Positions 14,485 to 49,130 of a stretch of DNA of 64,000 nucleotides are shown in pieces. Under the pieces are notes generated by a model. The model was not told the DNA's origin. It made no database searches and saw only the letters and a list, made by a program, of their open reading frames with translations. The DNA comes from Butyrivibrio sp. Su6 (GTDB lineage: Bacteria > Bacillota > Clostridia > Lachnospirales > Lachnospiraceae), in the NCBI RefSeq assembly GCF_900108105.1, contig NZ_FNUR01000012.1, positions 1 to 64,000 on the forward strand. Reading direction: 5' to 3'. Each line of letters begins with the position of its first letter. Within the stretch, counting starts at the first letter, position 1. The translations under genes and the position numbers were made by a program.

Positions 14485-15774
14485 TCAAGGCTTTTTACAT
14501 ATATACAAAAGGTGATTTGTATTCCCAAGCAATTCCCTTTTTTCAGAGTATGACATATACCAATCTGAAAGTCTCTTAAAGTCATCGTCGGAGATTGCAA
14601 AATCTGCCCTATGCTCAATTGGCTCAATAAGTCCATCTACACCTGTCGTTGTAATATACGTTACGTTTTTGTCCTTAAACAGATTCTCAAATTCTAAAAT
14701 ATCATAACCGGTAAAGAGTTGTTCCTTAAAATGTCTAACCTTATTATCAACTGTAAAGTTCTCTTCTTGTCCCTTAGACCAATTTCCATAAAAGTAATTT
14801 GAATACATAATTGCATATACCGATATAAATGCAAACATTATCACTCCACCTGGTCTTGTTACTCTGATAGCTTCATCAATTGCCTTATTAACTTCTTTGC
14901 TCTCGTACAAGTGATACAGTGGTCCAAATACAAGTGTAACATCAAAGCTATTATCTTCAAACATGTTAAGATTTGTGGCATCTGCCTTGAGTGACCTTAT
15001 ATTACTGATACTCTTGCTTTTCTCCTTTAGAATCTCCAAATTCTTATCAACAAGTTCAACGGCAGTTACATTCATTCCTTCTTTTGCGAGAGCTATAGAA
15101 TACCTTCCTGTTCCTGCTCCGATTTCCAAAATCTTTGAATTTTTAGCACAAAATCTGTGGATATAATTCATCGTCGTAGTATATTCAAGTCGCCCATGCA
15201 CTGTTCTTTCTAGGCGACCATCCTCTTCATATTGAGAGAAAAATTTGTTGATAATTTCTTCCCTTGAAGAGCCTTCCTCAATCTCATTTATCCGTGTAAA
15301 ATACTCTGTTGCATTTTCATGATGAATATATGCTCCATTTTTTATCTGCACACGGAGGCTTGCAGGATTATCTTTATTAACAGACATATATACTTCATGA
15401 ATGCACATCTGCCTTGCCTTCGTAAGGGTAAGCTCAAGTCCTTTTGTTGCATATCCCTTTCCACGATATTTTTTCGAAATACAATAGCCAATATGACCAG
15501 GTCCTTCTCTCAAAAAATCATTCAAACAATGTCTTAAATTAAAAACACCGACATAAACACCTTCATCAACAAGCACATATGTGGTATCAGGAACAAATCC
15601 TTCAGGAAGATTTTTCCCCATTGACCAATTTCTCTTTTTTTCAATCCACTCAAGAAATTGTTCATAGCTATAACCGTATACATTATTCATGTACCCGTTT
15701 TCATTTTCAGGAAAGGACATATAAAGTTCATATGTTTTTCGATAATCAGAATCCTGTACTCTTACTAGTTCCAT
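14485..15774 (-). CDS. GNAT acetyltransferase - SAM methyltransferase fusion
   Basis: One 429-residue chain with two enzyme domains. Residues 1-170 are a GNAT N-acetyltransferase, with the acetyl-CoA loop YRGKGYATKG near 105 followed by SLRVQIKNGA. Residues 205-429 are a class I SAM-dependent methyltransferase, with motif I ILEIGAGTGRYS near 218 and LKADATNL and VTRPGG after it. Substrates are unknown. The start is set by GGAGG seven nt before the ATG at 15774; a frame extension to 15819 would run into a terminator hairpin. It is probably co-transcribed with the AlkD-like gene 60 nt downstream. Confidence 0.88.
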   Translation of the reverse strand: MELVRVQDSDYRKTYELYMSFPENENGYMNNVYGYSYEQFLEWIEKKRNWSMGKNLPEGFVPDTTYVLVDEGVYVGVFNLRHCLNDFLREGPGHIGYCISKKYRGKGYATKGLELTLTKARQMCIHEVYMSVNKDNPASLRVQIKNGAYIHHENATEYFTRINEIEEGSSREEIINKFFSQYEEDGRLERTVHGRLEYTTTMNYIHRFCAKNSKILEIGAGTGRYSIALAKEGMNVTAVELVDKNLEILKEKSKSISNIRSLKADATNLNMFEDNSFDVTLVFGPLYHLYESKEVNKAIDEAIRVTRPGGVIMFAFISVYAIMYSNYFYGNWSKGQEENFTVDNKVRHFKEQLFTGYDILEFENLFKDKNVTYITTTGVDGLIEPIEHRADFAISDDDFKRLSDWYMSYSEKRELLGNTNHLLYICKKP

Positions 15775-35688: not shown

Positions 35689-36561
35689 TTATAACGCCTT
35701 TGGCACCGCAGAGTCCTGACCAATGATAAATCTCATAAAGGAGATTGGTCCTAAAAAAGTTGAAAGCCTGGACTTTATCTCACTGTTATATATATCATTT
35801 TCAATCGCCATCTCTTTTTTGAGATTATAGACTGTAACTATATTTTCCCAATTTTGTGGACCATAGGATTTCTTTTTTCTTATAGCTTTATAGCTTGAAT
35901 AATCATATCGATACAGTTTTTTCTCGGAAACAACGCATTTATCAGCCTTCATAAGCGCATGAAGCATAATTATCTCATCATCATAATAGCGGATTTTTTC
36001 TCCGGCATATTCTTCCATGCCACATAGAGCTTCTCTCTTGATCAATGTATTCCAAAGGTAACCCGTATAGGAATTGTCATCACTATCAAGCTTTCCAAAT
36101 AGCATTTTCCCAAAGGAGTCGATTACCTTTTTGCTTGAGTAATTCCCCGGGAACATCTCAGAATCATAAACCTTTGTATCAAAGCCTTCCCTTTTGATTA
36201 TCGCTCCAAAGAATATAATATCCGCATCATTTTCTGCTGCCACTGAGTGCATCACTTTATATCTTTTTTCAGCACATACATCATCAGCATCTATAAAGCT
36301 TATATACTCTCCTCTGGAAACTCTGATGCCCTCAAGCTTTGCCAGGAAAAGGCCTCTGTTCTCCTGCTGTCTATAAACTACATTGGGGCATTTCCATGCA
36401 TAATCCATGCATATATTTGGTGTATTATCTGTTGATCCGTCGTCAACTATTATGAGCTCATCATTCTCTCGAAGGCTAAGTAGAGCGTTCTCTATACATT
36501 CTGCTATTGTTTTTTCTGAATTATAAACCGGTAAGATCACACTGATGTTTTTTTCACTCAT
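35689..36561 (-). CDS. family 2 glycosyltransferase
   Basis: About 290 residues with a GT-A fold of family GT2: NISVILPVYNSEKTIAECIE at the N terminus, IIVDDGSTDNTP, and the metal-binding DxD in ISFIDADDVC. The sugar and acceptor are unknown. The frame opens at 36585, but AAGGGGG lies 10 nt before the ATG at 36561 and 7 nt before a GTG at 36564, so the start is one of these two. It diverges from the exported-peptide gene. Confidence 0.88.
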   Translation of the reverse strand: MSEKNISVILPVYNSEKTIAECIENALLSLRENDELIIVDDGSTDNTPNICMDYAWKCPNVVYRQQENRGLFLAKLEGIRVSRGEYISFIDADDVCAEKRYKVMHSVAAENDADIIFFGAIIKREGFDTKVYDSEMFPGNYSSKKVIDSFGKMLFGKLDSDDNSYTGYLWNTLIKREALCGMEEYAGEKIRYYDDEIIMLHALMKADKCVVSEKKLYRYDYSSYKAIRKKKSYGPQNWENIVTVYNLKKEMAIENDIYNSEIKSRLSTFLGPISFMRFIIGQDSAVPKAL

Positions 36562-36635
36562 CACTATATAGCCCCCTTTCATCAAGTCAAAGTTTTGTTG
36601 TTAATAACATAATAAAATTTTACAGTGCTAAAGAA

Positions 36636-36688
36636 AAGTGACAGAGTATTTTACAAAAAAATCATAAAAGTAAAATACTCTGTCACTT
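36636..36688. repeat. 19-bp perfect inverted repeat upstream of the exported peptide gene
   Basis: AAGTGACAGAGTATTTTAC (36636-36654) and its exact reverse complement (36670-36688) are separated by 15 A-rich nt. The right arm runs into the predicted -35 box of the small peptide gene, which suits an operator. On the minus strand it is followed by TTTTCTTTAG, which would also suit a terminator for the convergent regulator gene. Which of these it is cannot be settled here. Confidence 0.75.
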
Positions 36689-36715
36689 GCAATGGTGCGG
36701 CTTTTGATATATTTT
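36687..36715 (+). promoter_or_regulatory. promoter of the exported peptide gene
   Basis: TTGCAA (36687-36692), a 17-nt spacer and TATTTT (36710-36715) lie about 35 nt before the start codon. The -35 overlaps the inverted repeat by two bases. Confidence 0.4.
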
Positions 36716-36751
36716 AGTTTACAAAACTAATTTAATTGGGAGGGCTCTAAA

Positions 36752-36970
36752 ATGAAAAAAATTAGTAGCTTACTTGTTCTTGTACTTGTTATTTTTAATC
36801 TCACATTTACTATTTCATTTCCATTCGTTACTGTTTCAGACAATACAAATACAAACACTGAGACAACAACTGTTTCTGTAAGTGATTTAGTTGGTGACAC
36901 AACTGTATCTGAAGAAAACATTATTACTCTTCAGTCACACTTTCCTATCAGCATATTAAGAAATCAGTAA
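36752..36970 (+). CDS. small exported peptide precursor, candidate signalling peptide
   Basis: 72 residues. The N terminus is a Sec-type signal peptide (MKK, then a long Leu/Val/Ile/Phe core to about 25). The rest is Thr/Asn/Val/Ser-rich and ends SHFPISILRNQ. The ribosome site GGGAGG lies 8 nt before the ATG, which is strong support for a real gene too short for many annotators. It ends 7 bp inside the 3' end of a convergent HTH/TPR regulator gene. Small exported precursors beside TPR regulators are the hallmark of RRNPP signalling, where a C-terminal fragment is re-imported. No family match is recognised, so the signalling role is inference. Confidence 0.65.
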   Translation: MKKISSLLVLVLVIFNLTFTISFPFVTVSDNTNTNTETTTVSVSDLVGDTTVSEENIITLQSHFPISILRNQ

Positions 36971-38814
36971 TGTTTCCAATCTTCATTTTTTTCAAGCATT
37001 TCTTTGATTAAATTGTAATACTCTTTATGAACAGAGTTATTGATAAAATCGCATATTTTTACAATTTTATCAAATCTCTGTTCATAATATTTTCTATCCT
37101 TTTCTTCTATCTTTGCGTTATTTCTGAGGAGCATAAATAGTGCCCCATGAAGGCCAAATAATCTATGGCTCTTTAATTCCAATATTAACAACTCACTTGC
37201 TATTTTTTTAACTTTTTCTATTTTGTCGGCGTCACTATATACATCTGTCAACCATAGTGTTATTGATTCATATGTGCTATAATCCACCGGATGTCCGCCA
37301 GATTCATGATTACTACAAAAAGACTGTAAATACTCCATCAAGTGCTCTTTTTCTTCATCATCTTCAGTATATTTTCCTATACCAATCAAAAGGTTTAGTT
37401 CAGCATGAAGAACATATCCATCTTTTATTTCCAATACTGGAACAGGAAGAGTTAAGGTTAAATCTTCTTTCAGTTTAGTTGCATACTGTTCTCCCGTGAT
37501 TTTACCTTCATCCATGCTTAGCAATAGTTTTATAATGTCCAGCAGCTGCTTGTTTGTAGCAAATGAAAAATCTATTTTTTCTTCCAATTCCTTATACAGC
37601 GTTTCATAATCCGCAGCCACATAATTATTGATCATATTTGCCAGAGAATAGTACCTGTCCATAACTTCCCTATCATCAGTAATTATATCTGAACGAGTAT
37701 AGTCGCAGTTAATATTCAGTTCATCCATAATAGGGCGCAGAACGGCCTTCTGGGCAGAAATGGCGCTATTCTCAATACGCATCAACGTCCTGTAGGAGCA
37801 TTTTACCCTGTCTGCAAGTTCTTCTCTGCTAATCTGCATCATCTGCCTTCTTGATTTAATAACATCCCCGATGCAGTAAATATCTGAATCTCTGTAGATA
37901 TAGCAGTTATAATCCATAAGATAGTCCACATCGTATTCACTATAGATTTCTGCAAAAAGGTCATAGAGCTCTTTTGCTTTTTTAAGCTCCTCTTCATCAC
38001 CGTTTTTTTCCAATACACTGATCTTTCCTGAAAGAATTTCAGCAATGTAGTAGCTCCTGCTCTTTTGCTTCAAGTATTCCAAAGCCTTGTCGTACTGCTT
38101 AAGAACTGTCTTTTTGTCCACCTGCGCATAATCATTCTTATGGGCAATGTTCCCTAAAGCAACTGCTCCTGCTGTATATACTTTCGCTTTTCCCAGAATA
38201 TCAATAGCTGACTTTTCAAGATGATCAAGCACTGACAGGCAAACATCTGCTATCTTAGAGCTTTCATCAGGTGTAACTGAGCACTCTGCCTTGGCTTCTA
38301 ACATTTTAAACAGCAAAAAGTATTCGAGTGTTGCCCACACGCCAAACTTTTTCTCACATACTTCTTCAATGATCATAGTAAGCGAACAGGCTTTTTCATA
38401 CATTTCATATACTTCGCCCCAGGGAGCCTTTCTGAAATGCAGACACCTTGCCTTCATGTCATAGTAGAACTGAAGCTCTAATTTATTCAGGTTTAAATCT
38501 TCATCAAAAATAACCTGATCAATTTGCTCTTCTGCTTCAGCAAAGCTTTTTGACTCAATGAGCTTAATAAGCTCCATCCTCTTTAGATATCTTTTGTATT
38601 CATCAGGCTGTAAAAAGTCCTCATAGCCTTCTGATGAAATACCCAATCTGGACATGATACGGTTACGCATCATATAGTCAGGAAGAGTTGTTCCTTTTTC
38701 TATCTGCGCCATCATACTCTTTGTATAAAGTCCTTTTCCAGCCTCCTCAAGAGACACGTTGGCCGCTTCTCTGGTCATCTTCATAAATGCATGGAACTTT
38801 ATGTCGTCTCTCAT
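36964..38814 (-). CDS. double XRE-HTH / TPR-like regulator (RRNPP-like)
   Basis: 616 residues. The first HTH is at about 10-60 (VSLEEAGKGLYTKSMMAQIE) with about 250 residues of helical, TPR-like sequence after it. A second complete HTH lies at about 315-370 (ISREELADRVKCSYRTLMRI), followed by another helical region of about 240 residues. This HTH-TPR-HTH-TPR order looks like an internal duplication of an Rgg/PlcR-type regulator. Its 3' end overlaps that of the small exported peptide gene on the other strand. Peptide-controlled transcription is a reasonable inference; no target other than the peptide's own promoter is suggested by sequence. Confidence 0.75.
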   Translation of the reverse strand: MRDDIKFHAFMKMTREAANVSLEEAGKGLYTKSMMAQIEKGTTLPDYMMRNRIMSRLGISSEGYEDFLQPDEYKRYLKRMELIKLIESKSFAEAEEQIDQVIFDEDLNLNKLELQFYYDMKARCLHFRKAPWGEVYEMYEKACSLTMIIEEVCEKKFGVWATLEYFLLFKMLEAKAECSVTPDESSKIADVCLSVLDHLEKSAIDILGKAKVYTAGAVALGNIAHKNDYAQVDKKTVLKQYDKALEYLKQKSRSYYIAEILSGKISVLEKNGDEEELKKAKELYDLFAEIYSEYDVDYLMDYNCYIYRDSDIYCIGDVIKSRRQMMQISREELADRVKCSYRTLMRIENSAISAQKAVLRPIMDELNINCDYTRSDIITDDREVMDRYYSLANMINNYVAADYETLYKELEEKIDFSFATNKQLLDIIKLLLSMDEGKITGEQYATKLKEDLTLTLPVPVLEIKDGYVLHAELNLLIGIGKYTEDDEEKEHLMEYLQSFCSNHESGGHPVDYSTYESITLWLTDVYSDADKIEKVKKIASELLILELKSHRLFGLHGALFMLLRNNAKIEEKDRKYYEQRFDKIVKICDFINNSVHKEYYNLIKEMLEKNEDWKHY

Positions 38815-40122: not shown

Positions 40123-41301
40123 TCACTCTGACCTTGGCATAGTCTGCATTGCCATGCCGCCCTCATTTGTAAGTCCATCCTGCGCCATCATGGTCTTCAT
40201 AACAGAAATATCTGAAGAAATATCCCATGCCATATCCTGGAACAGACTGTCTAAAAGCTTTTCAAAAGCTTCATTTATCGTATCCATTGCTGAATCTATC
40301 TCATTCTTGGTCTGCTGAACGTTCTCTCCCTGAACTGTCTGTCTATCCAGTTCCACATATGCTTCTAAAAGCTTCTTGGTAGTTGGAAGATAATAGTTCA
40401 TGAGTTTGTGAAGATCCTCAGCGCTCTGAGGGTTCTTTTTCACCTGTTCAAAGATCCTGTTCATGATGCTCTCAAGTCTGTAGAGCTTGTTGGACATGTC
40501 CTCTGTATCAGGGATGATATCATTAGTAGCTCTAACGTACTTAATATAGTCCTCACCATCAGCAAGGATAGCATCAACTCCTGTAAGATTCTCTCTTGAT
40601 CTGCTGTCCACATTTATTGAAGCCTTCTGCTGATCAAGCTCTCTTTTTTCTCTCTCGAGTCTGTCTTTCTCAGCGCCAAGATAAAGCTGATAAGCTTCGT
40701 CTGTTATCATACAGGTTGTCTCTGTAGCATCAAGCCTTGCTCTTGGCAGGTAACCTTTTTTTATCATCTTCTTAATGTCTTTTAACACTTCAGAATCTGA
40801 CTTAAGAACTGCCTTTGCAAGATCAGAGATCTTAAAGAACTCATTCTCTTTAACAGCATTGCCATATTGATGAAAAAGCCTGGCCAGCTTCAACTTACCT
40901 ATTCCCGGAAAAACTAAAGCCCCGCTGACCGTAGCTAAAATTCCAAGTCCAAGTAATGACCACCAGCCACCAACAAAGGCTGTAGCAATTACTAAAGGTA
41001 AGAAGCAAAAGAATATTGAAGTTCCCAGAATAATCTCGAGAAGTCCCTGATATTTACTGACTCTTTTTGCAAAGAACGGGTACTGTGGCTGTTTGTAATT
41101 ATTTGTCTTTGTCGCGCTATACTGAGTAGCGCCGCTTCTTCTTGCACTTGAATAAGTAGTCTTCGGTTCAAAACTGACTGACTTTATCGTGTTTGTTATA
41201 TCACTGGCAAGCCTGCTATAATCGTTTTTATCTATGGCCGCGGTAACACTTTTTAAAATTTCACCGCTGGCTCTTATTACTTCTTGGGTATTATTATCCA
41301 C
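40123..41301 (-). CDS. XpaC-like membrane protein
   Basis: About 392 residues of the 5-bromo-4-chloroindolyl phosphate hydrolysis (XpaC) family. An N-terminal cytoplasmic region is followed by a transmembrane hairpin at about 85-130 (FFCFLPLVIATAFVGGWWSL, LGLGILATVSGALVF), then a long helical domain. The start is GTG at 41301, six nt after GGAGG; an upstream in-frame ATG at 41388 has no ribosome site. It forms a pair with TelA. Confidence 0.85.
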   Translation of the reverse strand: MDNNTQEVIRASGEILKSVTAAIDKNDYSRLASDITNTIKSVSFEPKTTYSSARRSGATQYSATKTNNYKQPQYPFFAKRVSKYQGLLEIILGTSIFFCFLPLVIATAFVGGWWSLLGLGILATVSGALVFPGIGKLKLARLFHQYGNAVKENEFFKISDLAKAVLKSDSEVLKDIKKMIKKGYLPRARLDATETTCMITDEAYQLYLGAEKDRLEREKRELDQQKASINVDSRSRENLTGVDAILADGEDYIKYVRATNDIIPDTEDMSNKLYRLESIMNRIFEQVKKNPQSAEDLHKLMNYYLPTTKKLLEAYVELDRQTVQGENVQQTKNEIDSAMDTINEAFEKLLDSLFQDMAWDISSDISVMKTMMAQDGLTNEGGMAMQTMPRSE

Positions 41302-41329
41302 AACTAGCCTCCACTGCATACAGATAAAT

Positions 41330-41349
41330 CGCAAATGCAAGTATATTTT
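41330..41349. repeat. 20-bp exact repeat, copy 2
   Basis: Identical to 13707-13726. On the minus strand it contains TATACT about 40 nt before the XpaC-like start codon, so it may include a -10 box. Confidence 0.5.
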
Positions 41350-41404
41350 ACAGTAAAAGAAATAGACATTCAACTTATGAAAGCGCAAATTATATGCGTT
41401 TATT

Positions 41405-44516: not shown

Positions 44517-46988
44517 TTACATTTCAAGCTTATCCAGGTGCCATACTTCGTCAACATACTCCTGAATAGTTCTGTCAGACGAGAATTTTCCGCAGCTTGC
44601 AGTATTGAGAAGTGCCATTTTTGCCCAACGCTTCTTGTCCTGATATGCATCAGATATTCTCTTCTGAGCCTCAAGGTATGACTCGAAGTCCTTAAGGATA
44701 AAGTACTGATCTGCCTTGTTGGAATTTACTGTATTTAACAGGCAGTTATAAAGCGGTCTAAATAGCTCTCTGTCTTTAGAGAAGGTTCCATCTACCAGCA
44801 TATCAAGAACTTTTTTTACATTAGGATTGCTGTTGTAGATATCCATTGGATTGTAGCCGCCGTTTCTCTCATAATCCATAACTTCCTGTGAAGTAAGACC
44901 AAAGATAAACGCGTTCTCTTCACCAACTTCATTAACAATCTCAACATTTGCTCCGTCAAGGGTTCCAAGAGTTACTGCTCCGTTAAGCATCATCTTCATA
45001 TTACCTGTACCGGAAGCCTCTTTTGAAGCGGTAGAGATCTGTTCTGATACATCTGCTGCCGCAAATATAAGCTCTGCATTTGAAACTCTGTAGTCCTCTA
45101 TAAATACAACTTTGATCTTGCCACCAATATCAGGGTCATTATTTACAACATCTGCCACTGCATTGATGAGCTTAATTGTAAGTTTGGCTGTAAGATAGCC
45201 GGCTGCTGCCTTGGCGCCAAAGATATATGTCTTTGGGTAGAAGTCCTTATTAGGGTGTGTCTTGATATCGTTGTACTTATGAATAACCTGAAGGATATTA
45301 AGGAGCTGCCTCTTGTATTCGTGAAGTCTTTTTACCTGAACATCAAAGATTGACTTAGGATCGACTTCAACTCCGTTGTGCTTCAGGATGTATTTAGCAA
45401 GGCGCTTCTTATTCTGAAGCTTGATATCCATGAACTCCTGCTGGGCTTTCTTATCGTCGGCAAAGGCCTTGAGTTTCTCCATCTGTGACAGGTCAACAAT
45501 CCAGTCATCACCGATCTTTTCCGTTACCCAGTCAGCCAAAAGAGGATTTGCATGCATAAGGAATCTTCTCTGGGTGATACCGTTTGTCTTATTGTTGAAC
45601 TTCTCAGGCATCATCTCATAGAAATCCTTAAGCTCTCTCTTTTCAAGGATCTCTGTGTGGAGCCTTGCAACGCCGTTAACTGAGTGTCCGCCGACAATTG
45701 CAAGATGTGCCATCTTAACCTGATTGTCATACAAAATTGCCATGCTTCTTATCTTGGCCTGAACATCGATTCCTGCTGAACCTGAGTACTGACGCATGAT
45801 CTGATCAACAAATCTTCGGTTTATCTCGTCAACAATCTGATAAATTCTTGGAAGAAGTCTCTGGAACAGGTCTACAGGCCACTTTTCAAGGGCTTCTGCC
45901 ATAATCGTATGGTTGGTGTAGCAGCAGGTCTTAGTTGTTACATCCCAGGCCTCATCCCATGAAAGATAGTATTCGTCCATGAGAAGTCTCATAAGCTCTG
46001 CAACTGCAACAGTTGGATGAGTGTCATTTAGCTGGAATACATTTTTTTCATAGAACTTTCTGATATCCTCATGATGCTTAAGATATCTCTGAAGAGCAGT
46101 CTGTACTGAAGCAGATATAAAGAAATACTGCTGTTTAAGTCTCAGCTCTTTTCCTGCTATATGATTGTCGTTTGGATAAAGAACTTCACAGAGCTGGCTT
46201 GCAAGATTTTCCTGCTCAACAGCTTTCTGATAATCACCCTTATCAAAAGAATCAAGCTGGAAGCACTGAACAGGCTCTGCATCCCAGATTCGGAGGGTGT
46301 TTACCACACCGTTTCCATATCCAACAACGGGAAGGTCATAAGGAACAGCTCTTACCACCTGATAGCCTTCCTGCTTGAACATGGTTCTTCCACGCTCGTC
46401 TGTATACATATTTACATAGCCGCCAAACTTAACTTCTTTGGCGTACTCATTTCTTCTAAGCTCAAATGGATTGCCGTTCTCAAGCCATGTATCCGGAACT
46501 TCTACCTGATAACCATCCTGAATTTTCTGACGGAACATTCCGTATTTATATCTGATTCCACAACCATAGGCCACGTATCCAAGAGTTGAAAGAGAATCCA
46601 AAAAACATGCAGCAAGTCTTCCAAGTCCACCATTTCCAAGGGCTGGATCCGGCTCCTGATCCTCAATTAGATTTAAATCAATATTGAGCTCATCAAGGGC
46701 TTCTTTTACCGGCTTATATGCCTGAAGGTTTATCAGGTTATTTCCAAATGCTCTTCCCATAAGAAATTCCATGGACATGTAGTACACAATCTTTGGGTCC
46801 TGCTCAGCTGCTTTTTTCTGTGTGGTCATCCAATGATCTACAATTGCATCCTTTATGGCATAGGCTGCTGCCTGGTAAAGCTCTTGCTCAGTAGCTTCTT
46901 CCATGGTCTTTCTGTAGAGAGTCTTTACGTTGTACTGGACACTTCTTTTGAATAAGTCCTTATCAAACTTTAGTGGTTTTTTCTTCAT
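44517..46988 (-). CDS. glgP: glycogen/maltodextrin phosphorylase
   Basis: 823 residues, full-length GT35 phosphorylase, releasing glucose 1-phosphate from glycogen or maltodextrins. Visible are LGNGGLGRLAACFLDSLSTL, YGCGIRYKYGMFRQ, NDTHPTVAVAEL and the PLP-lysine block EASGTGNMKMMLNGAVTLGT (near 663). AGGAGG precedes the ATG. The two following genes are close enough to share its mRNA. Confidence 0.97.
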   Translation of the reverse strand: MKKKPLKFDKDLFKRSVQYNVKTLYRKTMEEATEQELYQAAAYAIKDAIVDHWMTTQKKAAEQDPKIVYYMSMEFLMGRAFGNNLINLQAYKPVKEALDELNIDLNLIEDQEPDPALGNGGLGRLAACFLDSLSTLGYVAYGCGIRYKYGMFRQKIQDGYQVEVPDTWLENGNPFELRRNEYAKEVKFGGYVNMYTDERGRTMFKQEGYQVVRAVPYDLPVVGYGNGVVNTLRIWDAEPVQCFQLDSFDKGDYQKAVEQENLASQLCEVLYPNDNHIAGKELRLKQQYFFISASVQTALQRYLKHHEDIRKFYEKNVFQLNDTHPTVAVAELMRLLMDEYYLSWDEAWDVTTKTCCYTNHTIMAEALEKWPVDLFQRLLPRIYQIVDEINRRFVDQIMRQYSGSAGIDVQAKIRSMAILYDNQVKMAHLAIVGGHSVNGVARLHTEILEKRELKDFYEMMPEKFNNKTNGITQRRFLMHANPLLADWVTEKIGDDWIVDLSQMEKLKAFADDKKAQQEFMDIKLQNKKRLAKYILKHNGVEVDPKSIFDVQVKRLHEYKRQLLNILQVIHKYNDIKTHPNKDFYPKTYIFGAKAAAGYLTAKLTIKLINAVADVVNNDPDIGGKIKVVFIEDYRVSNAELIFAAADVSEQISTASKEASGTGNMKMMLNGAVTLGTLDGANVEIVNEVGEENAFIFGLTSQEVMDYERNGGYNPMDIYNSNPNVKKVLDMLVDGTFSKDRELFRPLYNCLLNTVNSNKADQYFILKDFESYLEAQKRISDAYQDKKRWAKMALLNTASCGKFSSDRTIQEYVDEVWHLDKLEM

Positions 46989-47016
46989 GTTGCCTCCTCA
47001 TAGAACTGATTGCAAT

Positions 47017-47045
47017 CCATATTTTTATTTCATAAAAAAATATGG
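47017..47045. other. AT-rich stem-loop in the glgP leader
   Basis: CCATATTTTT (47017-47026) pairs exactly with AAAAATATGG (47036-47045), about 29 nt before the glgP start. The stem is almost all A-T. It may be a weak leader structure; no known riboswitch is recognised. Confidence 0.3.
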
Positions 47046-47107
47046 TATACGAAATAATTTTACCGCATATCCGTTTACAATTCCATAAAATCCAACAAAA
47101 AAGACAT

Positions 47108-47147
47108 AAAAAAAGCCTCCGGACTTCCCTGTCCATGAGGATTAAAT
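47108..47147 (-). terminator. terminator of the flagellin operon
   Basis: On the minus strand CCTC...GGAC pairs with GTCC...GAGG and is followed by CTTTTTTTAT, about 12 nt after the flagellinolysin stop codon. Confidence 0.75.
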
Positions 47148-47159
47148 AATTTTTTATTA

Positions 47160-49130
47160 TTATTGTAATAACGCTAACACTCCCTGATTGGTCTGATTAG
47201 CCTGGGCCAGCATTGCCTGACCCGCCTGCTCAAGAATCTTTTGGTTTGAATATCTGACCATCTCCTCCGCCATATCCGTATCGCGGATCAGAGACTCTGC
47301 GCTCTGAGTGTTTTCAACTACGTTGTCCAGATTTCTGATCGTGTGATCAAGTCTGTTCTGCAGGGATCCGTAGTAGCTTCTGACACTGTTTACATTCAAA
47401 AGTGCTTTTTTAACTGTTTCAATTGTTGACAGGGCCTTATCCCTGGTTGATATATCAAATACTCCATATTCGGTGAGAGCGTCGAGACTGATATTAAAGC
47501 GCTTTAATTCTATCCTGTCCGTCGGTGAGTTTTCTGATCCAACCTGCAAGTATAGAAGACCGCTTCCCTCGGGATCATCACCGCCACTTCCGCTTCCGCC
47601 ACCGCCTCCTCCTGTAGTTCCAGGCTCTTTTTCGGGGATTGTATATCCTGTTCCAAAATAATTGGCGTATTTGGTGTTATCTGAATTTATTATGTAGTTC
47701 TGAGCGCTTGTACTTAAGCTCGAAGGTGCAAATACCGTTGCTTCTGATTTTGAAAGATCATCAAATATGGACCCCGCTCCGTTTGTTCCTTTGGCGGCTA
47801 AAAGATCCTTAATAAAAGCTACCGGTTCTGCGGCTCCCGATTTTACCGCATTTTCAAAGGCTGACTGGCCTCCTGTGTAATTTGTCAGATTTTTGATTGC
47901 CGTATCAAAAGAAGCTGGTGTGGTCGCCATATAATTCATTAACTTATCAAGGCCACTTGCTATATTAGCCGATGTCACTGCTGTGTTTCCATCCTTTGCA
48001 GAAACAGCATAACCAAGGTACATTGTCGCAAGATACCCTGCTCCATATGGGCCAAATCCTCCTGACTGCTGAGTTGTCTGTGTGAGCACTGACATATAGT
48101 TCGTTATAGCTGCATCTGTAGAAGAAGTGTTCAAAAAGTTTGAAACCCAGCCATTATCGCCGCTTGACGTCTGTGCAGCTCCTTCAACAAACCAGTCCGG
48201 GAAGCCGGAAAACATGCCGGATGTAAGTGTGTCATACATTGCAAGATGGGTCATTTCATGGGCTATAACTGCCGCCAGGTCAGCTTTCTGTGCGTCCGTC
48301 ATAGATGAATAGTTAGACATTGAATAATCAGATGAATCGACTGTCATCCAATAAGTCATTGTTGCAGAAGTCCCGTTACTTGAAAGCTGAAGTGAAGCAC
48401 TTGCCAGGGTATTGCTGGCTCCATCGATATTTGCAAGGTTTAATCCCACCTGAATAGTCTGTGATGCAGCGTTAGAAAAAAGACTTGGAAAATTATCATA
48501 CAGGTTAGATACCGCATTAGCAGCTGCGTCTTTGATAAACTGTGCAAAAGCTGTATCTGCGTAGGTCGTATCCTGACCAACTGCTGAACTTTCCTGAAGG
48601 TCTACTTTATTGCCACTGCTATCTACAAAATCAACAGTTATTTCTACGGTACTTCCATTTGGAAATCCCAAAGCAACCTTATTAGGGGATGTAACAGTAT
48701 TAGGTGCATAGCCATCATCCGCAAATATATCGATGTTATTAAACTGCGTAGTAGAGTGAACTCTGTCAATTTCCTGACCAAGCTTCTGCAGTTCCTGATT
48801 GGCAAAATTTCTATCATCGTTCAAAAGAGTATCATTAGCAGCTTTTACAGCAAGCACATTAGCCCTTTGGAGCATGTCACTAACTTCGTTTAAAGCTCCA
48901 TCTGCAATCTGGCACCATGAAACGCCGTCCTGTGCATTAGCAGACGCCTGAGTAAGACCCCTTATCTGCCTTCTCATCTTTTCCGAAATAGCAAGCCCTG
49001 CTGCATCATCAGCTGCTCTATTGATCTTGTATCCCGATGAAAGCTTTTCAGATGATTTGGCTGTAAGTCCGGTTGAAATATTCAGTTGTCGGTTAGCATT
49101 CATACCTGCTATATTATGCTGAATAACCAT
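47160..49130 (-). CDS. flagellinolysin: flagellin with inserted zinc metallopeptidase
   Basis: 656 residues. The N-terminal D0/D1 flagellin part (MVIQHNIAGMNANRQLNIST) and the C-terminal D1/D0 part (SLIRDTDMAEEMVRYSN, ending QGVLALLQ) are standard. The normally variable middle (about 150-500) is a gluzincin-type peptidase with H291-E292-M-T-H295 and a third ligand in WFVEGAAQ (E316). A Gly-rich hinge (about 505-520) follows. Such proteolytic flagellins are known from Clostridium haemolyticum and relatives and assemble into filaments as minor subunits. It lies downstream of a structural flagellin and a zinc-ribbon gene on the same strand. A GGAG ribosome site overlaps the leader, where an AAGGAT motif also occurs. 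Confidence 0.93.
   Translation of the reverse strand: MVIQHNIAGMNANRQLNISTGLTAKSSEKLSSGYKINRAADDAAGLAISEKMRRQIRGLTQASANAQDGVSWCQIADGALNEVSDMLQRANVLAVKAANDTLLNDDRNFANQELQKLGQEIDRVHSTTQFNNIDIFADDGYAPNTVTSPNKVALGFPNGSTVEITVDFVDSSGNKVDLQESSAVGQDTTYADTAFAQFIKDAAANAVSNLYDNFPSLFSNAASQTIQVGLNLANIDGASNTLASASLQLSSNGTSATMTYWMTVDSSDYSMSNYSSMTDAQKADLAAVIAHEMTHLAMYDTLTSGMFSGFPDWFVEGAAQTSSGDNGWVSNFLNTSSTDAAITNYMSVLTQTTQQSGGFGPYGAGYLATMYLGYAVSAKDGNTAVTSANIASGLDKLMNYMATTPASFDTAIKNLTNYTGGQSAFENAVKSGAAEPVAFIKDLLAAKGTNGAGSIFDDLSKSEATVFAPSSLSTSAQNYIINSDNTKYANYFGTGYTIPEKEPGTTGGGGGGSGSGGDDPEGSGLLYLQVGSENSPTDRIELKRFNISLDALTEYGVFDISTRDKALSTIETVKKALLNVNSVRSYYGSLQNRLDHTIRNLDNVVENTQSAESLIRDTDMAEEMVRYSNQKILEQAGQAMLAQANQTNQGVLALLQ

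Follow-up and report, generated by a model that had tools for sequence, protein, structure and literature searches.

In the PlcR-PapR system of the Bacillus cereus group the PapR precursor is exported, and the PapR7 signal peptide is ADLPFEF. In the group III Rgg/SHP (MutRS) systems the genes for peptide and receptor converge, the former overlapping the end of the latter (PMC13361665), while SHP propeptides are exported through PptAB (PMC10075063). The ComR receptor dimerises on peptide binding and falls into pherotypes with receptor-signal coevolution (PMC8605241), and in Streptococcus pyogenes two related receptors, Rgg2 and Rgg3, compete for shared promoter sites (PMC13361665). The validated receptors of this RRNPP type are described as single units of 285-473 amino acids, and the program RRNPP_detector by default keeps proteins of 250-500 amino acids (PMC10075063). 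Here we describe a locus from Butyrivibrio sp. Su6 (genome size 3.7 Mb), lying in the first 64,000 nucleotides of contig NZ_FNUR01000012.1, the whole of which is hereafter called the window. A gene for a small, apparently exported precursor is there paired with a regulator in which the unit of helix-turn-helix (HTH) and tetratricopeptide repeat (TPR) domains occurs twice. The pair very probably represents RRNPP-type cytoplasmic peptide quorum sensing with a single-chain double receptor, seemingly a variant in which two copies of a known kind of receptor have been fused. The signal and the receptor part that probably reads it appear to change together between species. An initial annotation, made from the sequence of the window, had proposed an RRNPP-type signalling pair at this site; its reading largely holds, with quorum sensing and direct peptide binding the steps that we infer.

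Domain architecture and fold of the regulator

Comparison of the two halves of the regulator with each other (E 3e-44) identifies it as an internal duplication of a module made of an HTH and five TPRs. Pfam recognises an HTH in each half (Table 1), and the AlphaFold2 model of the chain (mean predicted local distance difference test, pLDDT, 90.7; predicted template modelling score, pTM, 0.91) has the order HTH-TPR-HTH-TPR proposed initially. A TPR fold, without which the initial reading would have fallen, is predicted in both halves. The arrangement typical of RRNPP receptors, in which a TPR domain comes after an XRE-type HTH at the N-terminus, is therefore present twice in one chain. The initial annotation had also called the duplication unusual, and here a refinement is needed: the protein is no isolated case, belonging to a Lachnospiraceae family that includes unfused tandem pairs. 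A single copy of the regulator was found in the host genome at E <= 0.001. Elsewhere in the window, a 207-residue open reading frame (ORF) on the minus strand (46542-47165) weakly matches the family profile, at 29.9 bits, in its HTH2 part.

In structural comparisons PlcR, ComR and Rgg were among the leading matches to the regulator model, and PlcR was the best match of the C-terminal half. The supposed likeness to Rgg/PlcR-type quorum sensing is thereby upheld, with the refinement that the gene layout is that of the group III Rgg/SHP (MutRS) systems. For both the full-length and the C-half models, the scores of numerous unrelated TPR proteins come near those of the RRNPP entries, and AimR and PrgX are absent among the best 50 structural matches listed for either. 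A PDB sequence search with the window regulator (E <= 1) returned no RRNPP protein and no Rgg; a Pfam/NCBIfam scan at the same threshold gave no Rgg-named model, a result that leaves room for distant kinship. The RNPP_C model (PF18768) matches four of 40 family members, the window protein not being one of them.

The convergent peptide gene and its recurrence

The precursor and regulator ORFs lie tail to tail, as first described, with a 7-bp overlap of their 3' ends. The precursor had been annotated as an exported-type protein with a strong ribosome site, and such an ORF is indeed present, the site reading TTGGGAGGGCTCTAAA-ATG, with TTGGGAGGGCTC ahead of the ATG. The export signal was judged by a hydrophobicity rule for the N-terminus; by this rule, a small exported-looking propeptide gene adjoins the receptor gene, as in RRNPP systems. 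Orthologs of the precursor, with 88-90% identity, occur in three other Butyrivibrio species. There are no further copies beyond these four orthologs among the 79 genus genomes, 45 of which give matches at E <= 1; apart from the four orthologs, all of these matches stand at E 0.001 or worse. A close ortholog of the regulator is present in four of the 79 (host included), and 16 contain some match at E <= 0.001, which means that part of Butyrivibrio lacks the system.

More widely, a profile built from 40 finds gave matches at E <= 1e-10 in at least 48 of 299 family-level genomes. In a phylum sample of 398 genomes, which holds few Lachnospiraceae, seven match at 1e-25, at full length only in the host genome, the six others lying in open frames of 210-334 amino acids. 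Both counts are lower bounds, the family-level search having scored four candidates per genome and the phylum sample three. Within the sampled genomes the fused double receptor appears to be confined to Lachnospiraceae.

The collected loci, cited below by L numbers where necessary, contain 103 family ORFs (E <= 1e-5) among 339 unique ORFs of at least 200 amino acids. The 236 non-family ORFs served as controls, 28 without 300 bp of 3' flank being dropped to leave 208. A peptide was counted where an antisense ORF of 30-120 amino acids with an ATG start, a ribosome site and a hydrophobic N-terminus had its stop within -80 to +60 of the regulator stop. This rule was fixed after a first look at overlapping loci, and the contrast with the controls is descriptive rather than blind. 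Of 48 long regulators, 26 have such a convergent exported small ORF at their 3' ends (a further two, with insufficient flank, were left out), compared to one of the 208 control genes, which come from these loci too. With the window and its three orthologs set aside, the figure is 22 of 44, a weak candidate at L042 among them. Under a relaxed rule similar ORFs appear at L063, L064, L091, L092 and L097, and L066 and L126 have possible peptide ORFs somewhat further off. Among short or fragmentary relatives the peptide is present at 11 of 52; one of these, L051, is the locus of the window in truncated form. The peptide ORF is thus conserved beside regulator homologues, a point on which the initial annotation had made its reading depend. 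The parts of the locus are beyond chance, being conserved in the three other Butyrivibrio species, in a layout enriched over non-family genes. A reading of the peptide as a chance ORF was rejected, given the single control gene with such an ORF.

A polymorphic cassette

The regulators of Butyrivibrio proteoclasticus P18 (G305), the metagenome-assembled genome RGIG9232 (G350) and Butyrivibrio sp. AE2015 (G306) are 85%, 82% and 71% identical, respectively, to that of the window. Variation along the receptor is uneven: across the four orthologs identity is 96-100% at residues 1-70 and 94-97% at residues 301-380, but 63-90% in TPR1 (71-300) and 56-75% in TPR2, the most divergent domain. The precursors share signal and linker in all four species and end in SHFP-ISILR-NQ (window), SHFP-RNVLF-NQ, SHFP-RTAFF-NQ and SHFP-THRVNV-NQ. 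At the nucleotide level, window and G350 differ at 6 of 195 positions in codons 1-65 and, within the core, at 10 of 15; G305 and G350 show a less marked contrast, at 12 of 195 and 4 of 15. Conservation of the final Gln and stop may be forced, because these overlap the receptor's last codons. The covariation of peptide C-terminus and TPR region that had been suggested as a check is favoured, though not decided, by these four related species, core and TPR2 both differing in all four orthologs, with leader, operator and HTHs nearly constant.

Between window and G306, the stretch that runs from roughly 38.47 to 36.95 kb has a nucleotide identity per 100 bp of 56-83%, the flanking genes standing mostly at 89-99%. 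Synonymous divergence (dS) for this pair is 0.12-0.29 in neighbouring genes, 1.29 in the regulator and 0.07 in the precursor leader; in the other ortholog pairs the glycosyltransferase gene is divergent too. As a separate observation, the precursor leader and linker (36752-36946) show 0-2 differences at 32-34 fourfold sites against L078, L079 and L080, and the synonymous-site difference in the same ortholog pairs is 32-63% for the regulator and 9-58% for neighbouring genes, both above the leader and linker. A second patch of low identity (55-68%), with better conserved flanks, lies at about 41132-40850 against L079, within the gene at 40123-41388.

Judged by these alignments, peptide core and receptor end form one polymorphic DNA cassette. 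Window, G305 and G350 have much of TPR1-HTH2 in common (83-95% of nucleotides, 38171-37771) and less of TPR2 (57-91%); because TPR1-HTH2 is largely common to these three, TPR2 plus core is the minimal unit by which all four orthologs can be told apart. Since synonymous sites have diverged too, block exchange of old alleles would be a better fit than rapid point mutation. The receptor was also considered as a case of positive selection, and this was rejected: the simple ratio of nonsynonymous to synonymous divergence (dN/dS) in TPR2 is 0.07-0.21, resembling old-allele exchange rather than fast amino-acid change alone.

The same comparison bears on how the halves may divide the work. TPR1 could be a structural, dimer-like scaffold with TPR2 alone sensing, a sub-case of the double-receptor reading with overlapping odds, to which we give a little under an even chance. 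The part of TPR1 at 38171-37871 is 83-95% identical at the nucleotide level in three orthologs with different cores, as such a scaffold might be, while TPR2 differs in all four; yet TPR1 is replaced in G306 as well, and varies at 38571-38271 in G350.

The inverted repeat as a putative operator

The 19-bp arms of the inverted repeat ahead of the peptide gene (36636-36654 and 36670-36688) are 100% complementary. The repeat had been said to touch the -35 box of the peptide promoter. The exact repeat stands, as does a 2-bp overlap with a -35-like TTGCAA (36687-36692; TTGAAA in the orthologs), but the promoter itself falls below the threshold of a consensus scan: the -35/-10 pair, chosen by eye, is not listed for the region, where the scan gave four other candidates against 1.0 in shuffles. 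In the host genome the exact half-site occurs at the two arms and nowhere else. A search of that genome for a wider regulon found 23 half-site matches at <=3 mismatches against 19 for a reversed control, giving no evidence of more operators. The sole half-site-like sequence in the window besides the arms is GCAACAGAGTATTTTAC at 15296-15312 (minus strand), with two mismatches; such matches genome-wide are near the control count.

Long inverted repeats upstream of the peptide recur at 28 of 36 loci, close relatives included, at a level reached by at most one in 40 first-order Markov shuffles. Their arms measure 13-33 bp, and 18 of the 28 end 50-75 bp ahead of the peptide ATG. In a less redundant set of 21 arms (median length 22 bp, median G+C 36%), the core ATG[AGT]C, a pattern picked after inspection, is present in 10 against 0.93 expected in shuffles; in an exhaustive best-6-mer test the figures are seven arms versus at most six in 500 shuffles. 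When 18 loci are compared, the similarity of their arms rises with HTH2 identity (r 0.40, Mantel p 0.0005) and less with TPR1 (r 0.28, p 0.008) and TPR2 (r 0.29, p 0.0035). Partial correlations are 0.46 for HTH2 and 0.13 for HTH1 given the TPRs, and 0.04 for TPR1 and 0.15 for TPR2 given the HTHs. Because arm similarity tracks HTH2 identity, also given the TPRs, the pattern fits an operator read mainly by HTH2. HTH1 as the operator reader was considered and is unsupported. A single XRE half-site is usually shorter than arms of this median length, so their length would be in keeping with a pair of HTHs on each arm, or with a dimer of chains spanning the entire repeat.

A terminator of the regulator message, or of another transcript, would also appear as an inverted repeat. 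The RNA would form a 19-bp hairpin, followed on the regulator strand by TTCTTTAGC, and the scan that found no terminator considered loops of 3-8 nt, so that a 15-nt loop lay outside its reach. We nevertheless regard this explanation as highly unlikely in view of the AT-rich stems, the preferred distance from the peptide ATG, the recurrent core, the tracking of arm sequence with HTH2, and the retention of the same arms by the twin systems L111 and L112. These twins lie 11 kb apart on the same contig. Their regulators are 78% identical and their 25-bp arms the same, and their peptides differ; one operator type may there be served by two signals.

Fused and unfused receptors

Eight loci (L017, L020, L071, L075, L113, L119, L125 and L128) have two adjacent genes of 251-356 amino acids in place of one fused gene. 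With each gene measured from its earliest possible start, overlaps of 19-49 nt occur in six pairs, and gaps of 17 and 53 nt in the other two. Every upstream member of a pair resembles chiefly the profile's first half and every downstream member its second, and the convergent peptide lies behind the second gene in six of seven testable pairs and behind the first in none of eight.

A tree of 77 halves and genes, sampling 22 of 43 fused proteins and excluding members below 100 bits as well as L051, L031, L079 and L080, splits at a 100/99 branch, many of its terminal branches being long. One side contains 21 N-halves, all eight first genes, four singles and one C-half; the other contains 21 C-halves, all eight second genes, 13 singles and one N-half. 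Because N-halves and first genes separate from C-halves and second genes, one old duplication underlies fused and split forms alike. Both exceptions come from the fused regulator of L145 (929-2839), whose halves sit in opposite clades, as if their order had been swapped or the duplication were independent. Taken across the family, the double receptor looks to form a clade, marked by a layout and an operator type of its own and by a specificity cassette open to exchange.

Proposed mechanism

The anatomy, duplication, predicted fold, recurrent layout and palindrome, polymorphic cassette, and joint difference of core and TPR2 in four orthologs are read from sequence. Beyond them we infer the peptide's export, processing, import and binding, the receptor's attachment to DNA, the sign and target of the regulation, and exchange by recombination, as follows. 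The precursor would leave the cell via Sec and be trimmed outside to a short C-terminal peptide, approximately FPISILRNQ or shorter, which an oligopeptide (Opp-type) permease would re-import; the host genome has eight oligopeptide-binding protein genes (SBP_bac_5). The peptide would bind the receptor, mainly at the second TPR domain. The fused HTH-TPR units would act as a built-in dimer on the palindrome through their HTHs, with HTH2 carrying most of the operator sequence choice, and peptide binding would switch transcription both of the peptide gene, as feedback, and of the glycosyltransferase gene that diverges from it. Since the sensing end of the receptor and the peptide core meet tail to tail, a single recombination event could swap both, and new signal types might spread as a unit between conserved flanks.

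An elaboration that we consider rather doubtful makes this a two-input receptor. TPR2, the variable domain, would bind the system's own pheromone, TPR1 either that pheromone in another manner or a further peptide that varies less, and the two HTHs on the long palindrome would compute a combined response, with signal and sensor as one exchangeable cassette.

Several observations weigh against the proposed signalling system. In the full-length structural comparison unrelated TPR proteins score like PlcR (13.3 versus 13.6), and the window regulator matches no TPR or RNPP_C Pfam model. Its length falls outside the default range of RRNPP_detector, although each half, at about 300 amino acids, fits. 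The strict peptide rule fails for 22 of the 48 long members, 17 of which lack a clear peptide even under relaxed criteria, and among the short or fragmentary relatives, L051 not counted, a peptide accompanies no more than 10 of 51. Eight of the 36 peptide promoters are without a significant palindrome, the L093 repeat abuts the ribosome site and is probably an artefact rather than an operator, and HTH1 does not track the operator significantly (r 0.12, p 0.15, 18 loci). Lastly, the covariation of core and TPR2, seen in four related species only, is an association and not proof, because TPR2, as the fastest domain, differs most anyway. It comes from one ortholog group, since a second set, sought in two other genera (four and three genomes), yielded nothing above 46% identity except the in-genome paralogs L111 and L112.

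Neighbouring and candidate target genes

The divergent glycosyltransferase gene occupies the same position in all four orthologs, and the first listed gene beyond the peptide is divergent in 28 of 32 loci, four others having no flank. Some of these first genes are uncertain short ORFs of 87-114 amino acids. In a Pfam scan of 20 such genes or operon neighbours, matches were to glycosyltransferase 2 (window), GH43 (L110), VWA (L140), MFS (L045), FtsX (L112) and a C39-like protease (L004), with MacB_PCD (L038) and HEPN_Swt1 (L033) just under curated cut-offs. The RiPP-type enzymes (ribosomally synthesised and post-translationally modified peptides) comprise ThiF with a sub-threshold PqqD (L086, 1-990) and radical SAM proteins (L115, 4565-5569; L116, 65-1090, the latter also with SPASM). 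The remaining nine have no match or a weak one only; several no-match genes start, by eye, with a signal-like leader. The L086, L115 and L116 operons, divergent from putative pheromone genes, are candidate signal-controlled RiPP clusters.

Such neighbours raise the question of whether the exported peptide is itself an effector, an antimicrobial or modified-peptide precursor that is product rather than signal, with the regulator answering something else. A hypervariable core could likewise reflect bacteriocin diversification. However, the RiPP-type enzymes of the relatives are divergent from the peptide rather than co-directional, and no modification or immunity gene is evident among the immediate window neighbours, these being the glycosyltransferase, assigned by Pfam, and genes that we take to be galK-, galT- and TelA-like. 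The core is just 5-6 residues long, the receptor's TPR2 changes with it, and the PlcR, ComR and Rgg folds are those of known peptide receptors. An effector role is accordingly most improbable, and signalling through the double receptor is preferred.

Table 1. Features of the putative signalling locus, in window coordinates
Feature	Position	Strand	Description
Family-2 glycosyltransferase gene	35689..36585	-	Divergent; likely ATG 36561; likely target; PF00535, E 2.3e-31
Presumed operator	36636..36688	.	Inverted repeat, 19-bp arms, 15-nt spacer; between divergent peptide and glycosyltransferase genes
Putative pheromone precursor gene	36752..36970	+	72 aa; leader resembling a signal sequence, linker rich in Thr/Ser, then SHFP, the variable core ISILR and NQ
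Hypervariable-core codons	36947..36961	+	ISILR in window; presumed specificity part of mature peptide
Polymorphic specificity cassette	36947..38470	.	Peptide core and most of receptor, conserved flanks; ends approximate
Putative regulator/receptor gene	36964..38814	-	616 aa; HTH1-TPR1-HTH2-TPR2, fused double RRNPP-like receptor
TPR2 helices	36991..37671	-	Residues 382-608; presumed pheromone-binding domain; AlphaFold2 model
HTH2	37702..37860	-	Residues 319-371; PF01381 HTH_3, E 2.2e-06
TPR1 helices	37936..38607	-	Residues 70-293; AlphaFold2 model
HTH1	38635..38787	-	Residues 10-60; PF13560 HTH_31, E 1e-07

Comparison with known systems

Lachnospiraceae are abundant rumen and gut bacteria, and the present finding would place a diversified peptide-signalling family among them. 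A literature search covering few subscription papers or preprints found no paper joining RRNPP with Lachnospiraceae, or Lachnospiraceae with peptide pheromone and tetratricopeptide. Rumen quorum sensing is treated as LuxS/AI-2 in the accessible text of PMC7035670, and the data of PMC10626739, as far as available, list RRNPP receptors for Streptococcus alone. The main text of PMC10075063 mentions neither Lachnospir nor Butyrivibrio, the accessible text of PMC9765709 neither Lachno nor fusion, and the parts covered of PMC12700828 and PMC12445099 contain no fused receptor. Double receptors of 600-700 amino acids would escape RRNPP_detector because of its default length range. With the fused receptor, the sensing role of each half of a dimer becomes open to direct test, and for specificity swaps the polymorphic cassette offers a ready-made set of alleles.

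Compared to PlcR-PapR, the window locus shares a receptor of HTH and TPR domains and an exported-type precursor with a putative C-terminal signal peptide. PlcR, however, is a single unit, of 280-284 residues in the matched chains, whereas here two units are fused in 616, and the window peptide gene is convergent with, and overlaps, the receptor gene. In this last respect the locus resembles the group III Rgg/SHP (MutRS) systems of streptococci, as it does in having Rgg3 as a leading fold match and relatives that adjoin RiPP-type enzymes. It departs from them in that the receptor there is a single unit, and in its precursor, whose Sec-like leader and Thr/Ser-rich linker are unlike SHPs. With ComR-ComS the predicted model shares the fold and domain order of each half, with five TPRs and a cap helix, but ComR is a single unit that dimerises on peptide, while here both units lie in one chain. 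The Rgg2/Rgg3 pair offers a looser parallel, two HTH-TPR units probably acting here on one palindrome; there they are separate proteins, and here they are fused or encoded by adjacent tandem genes.

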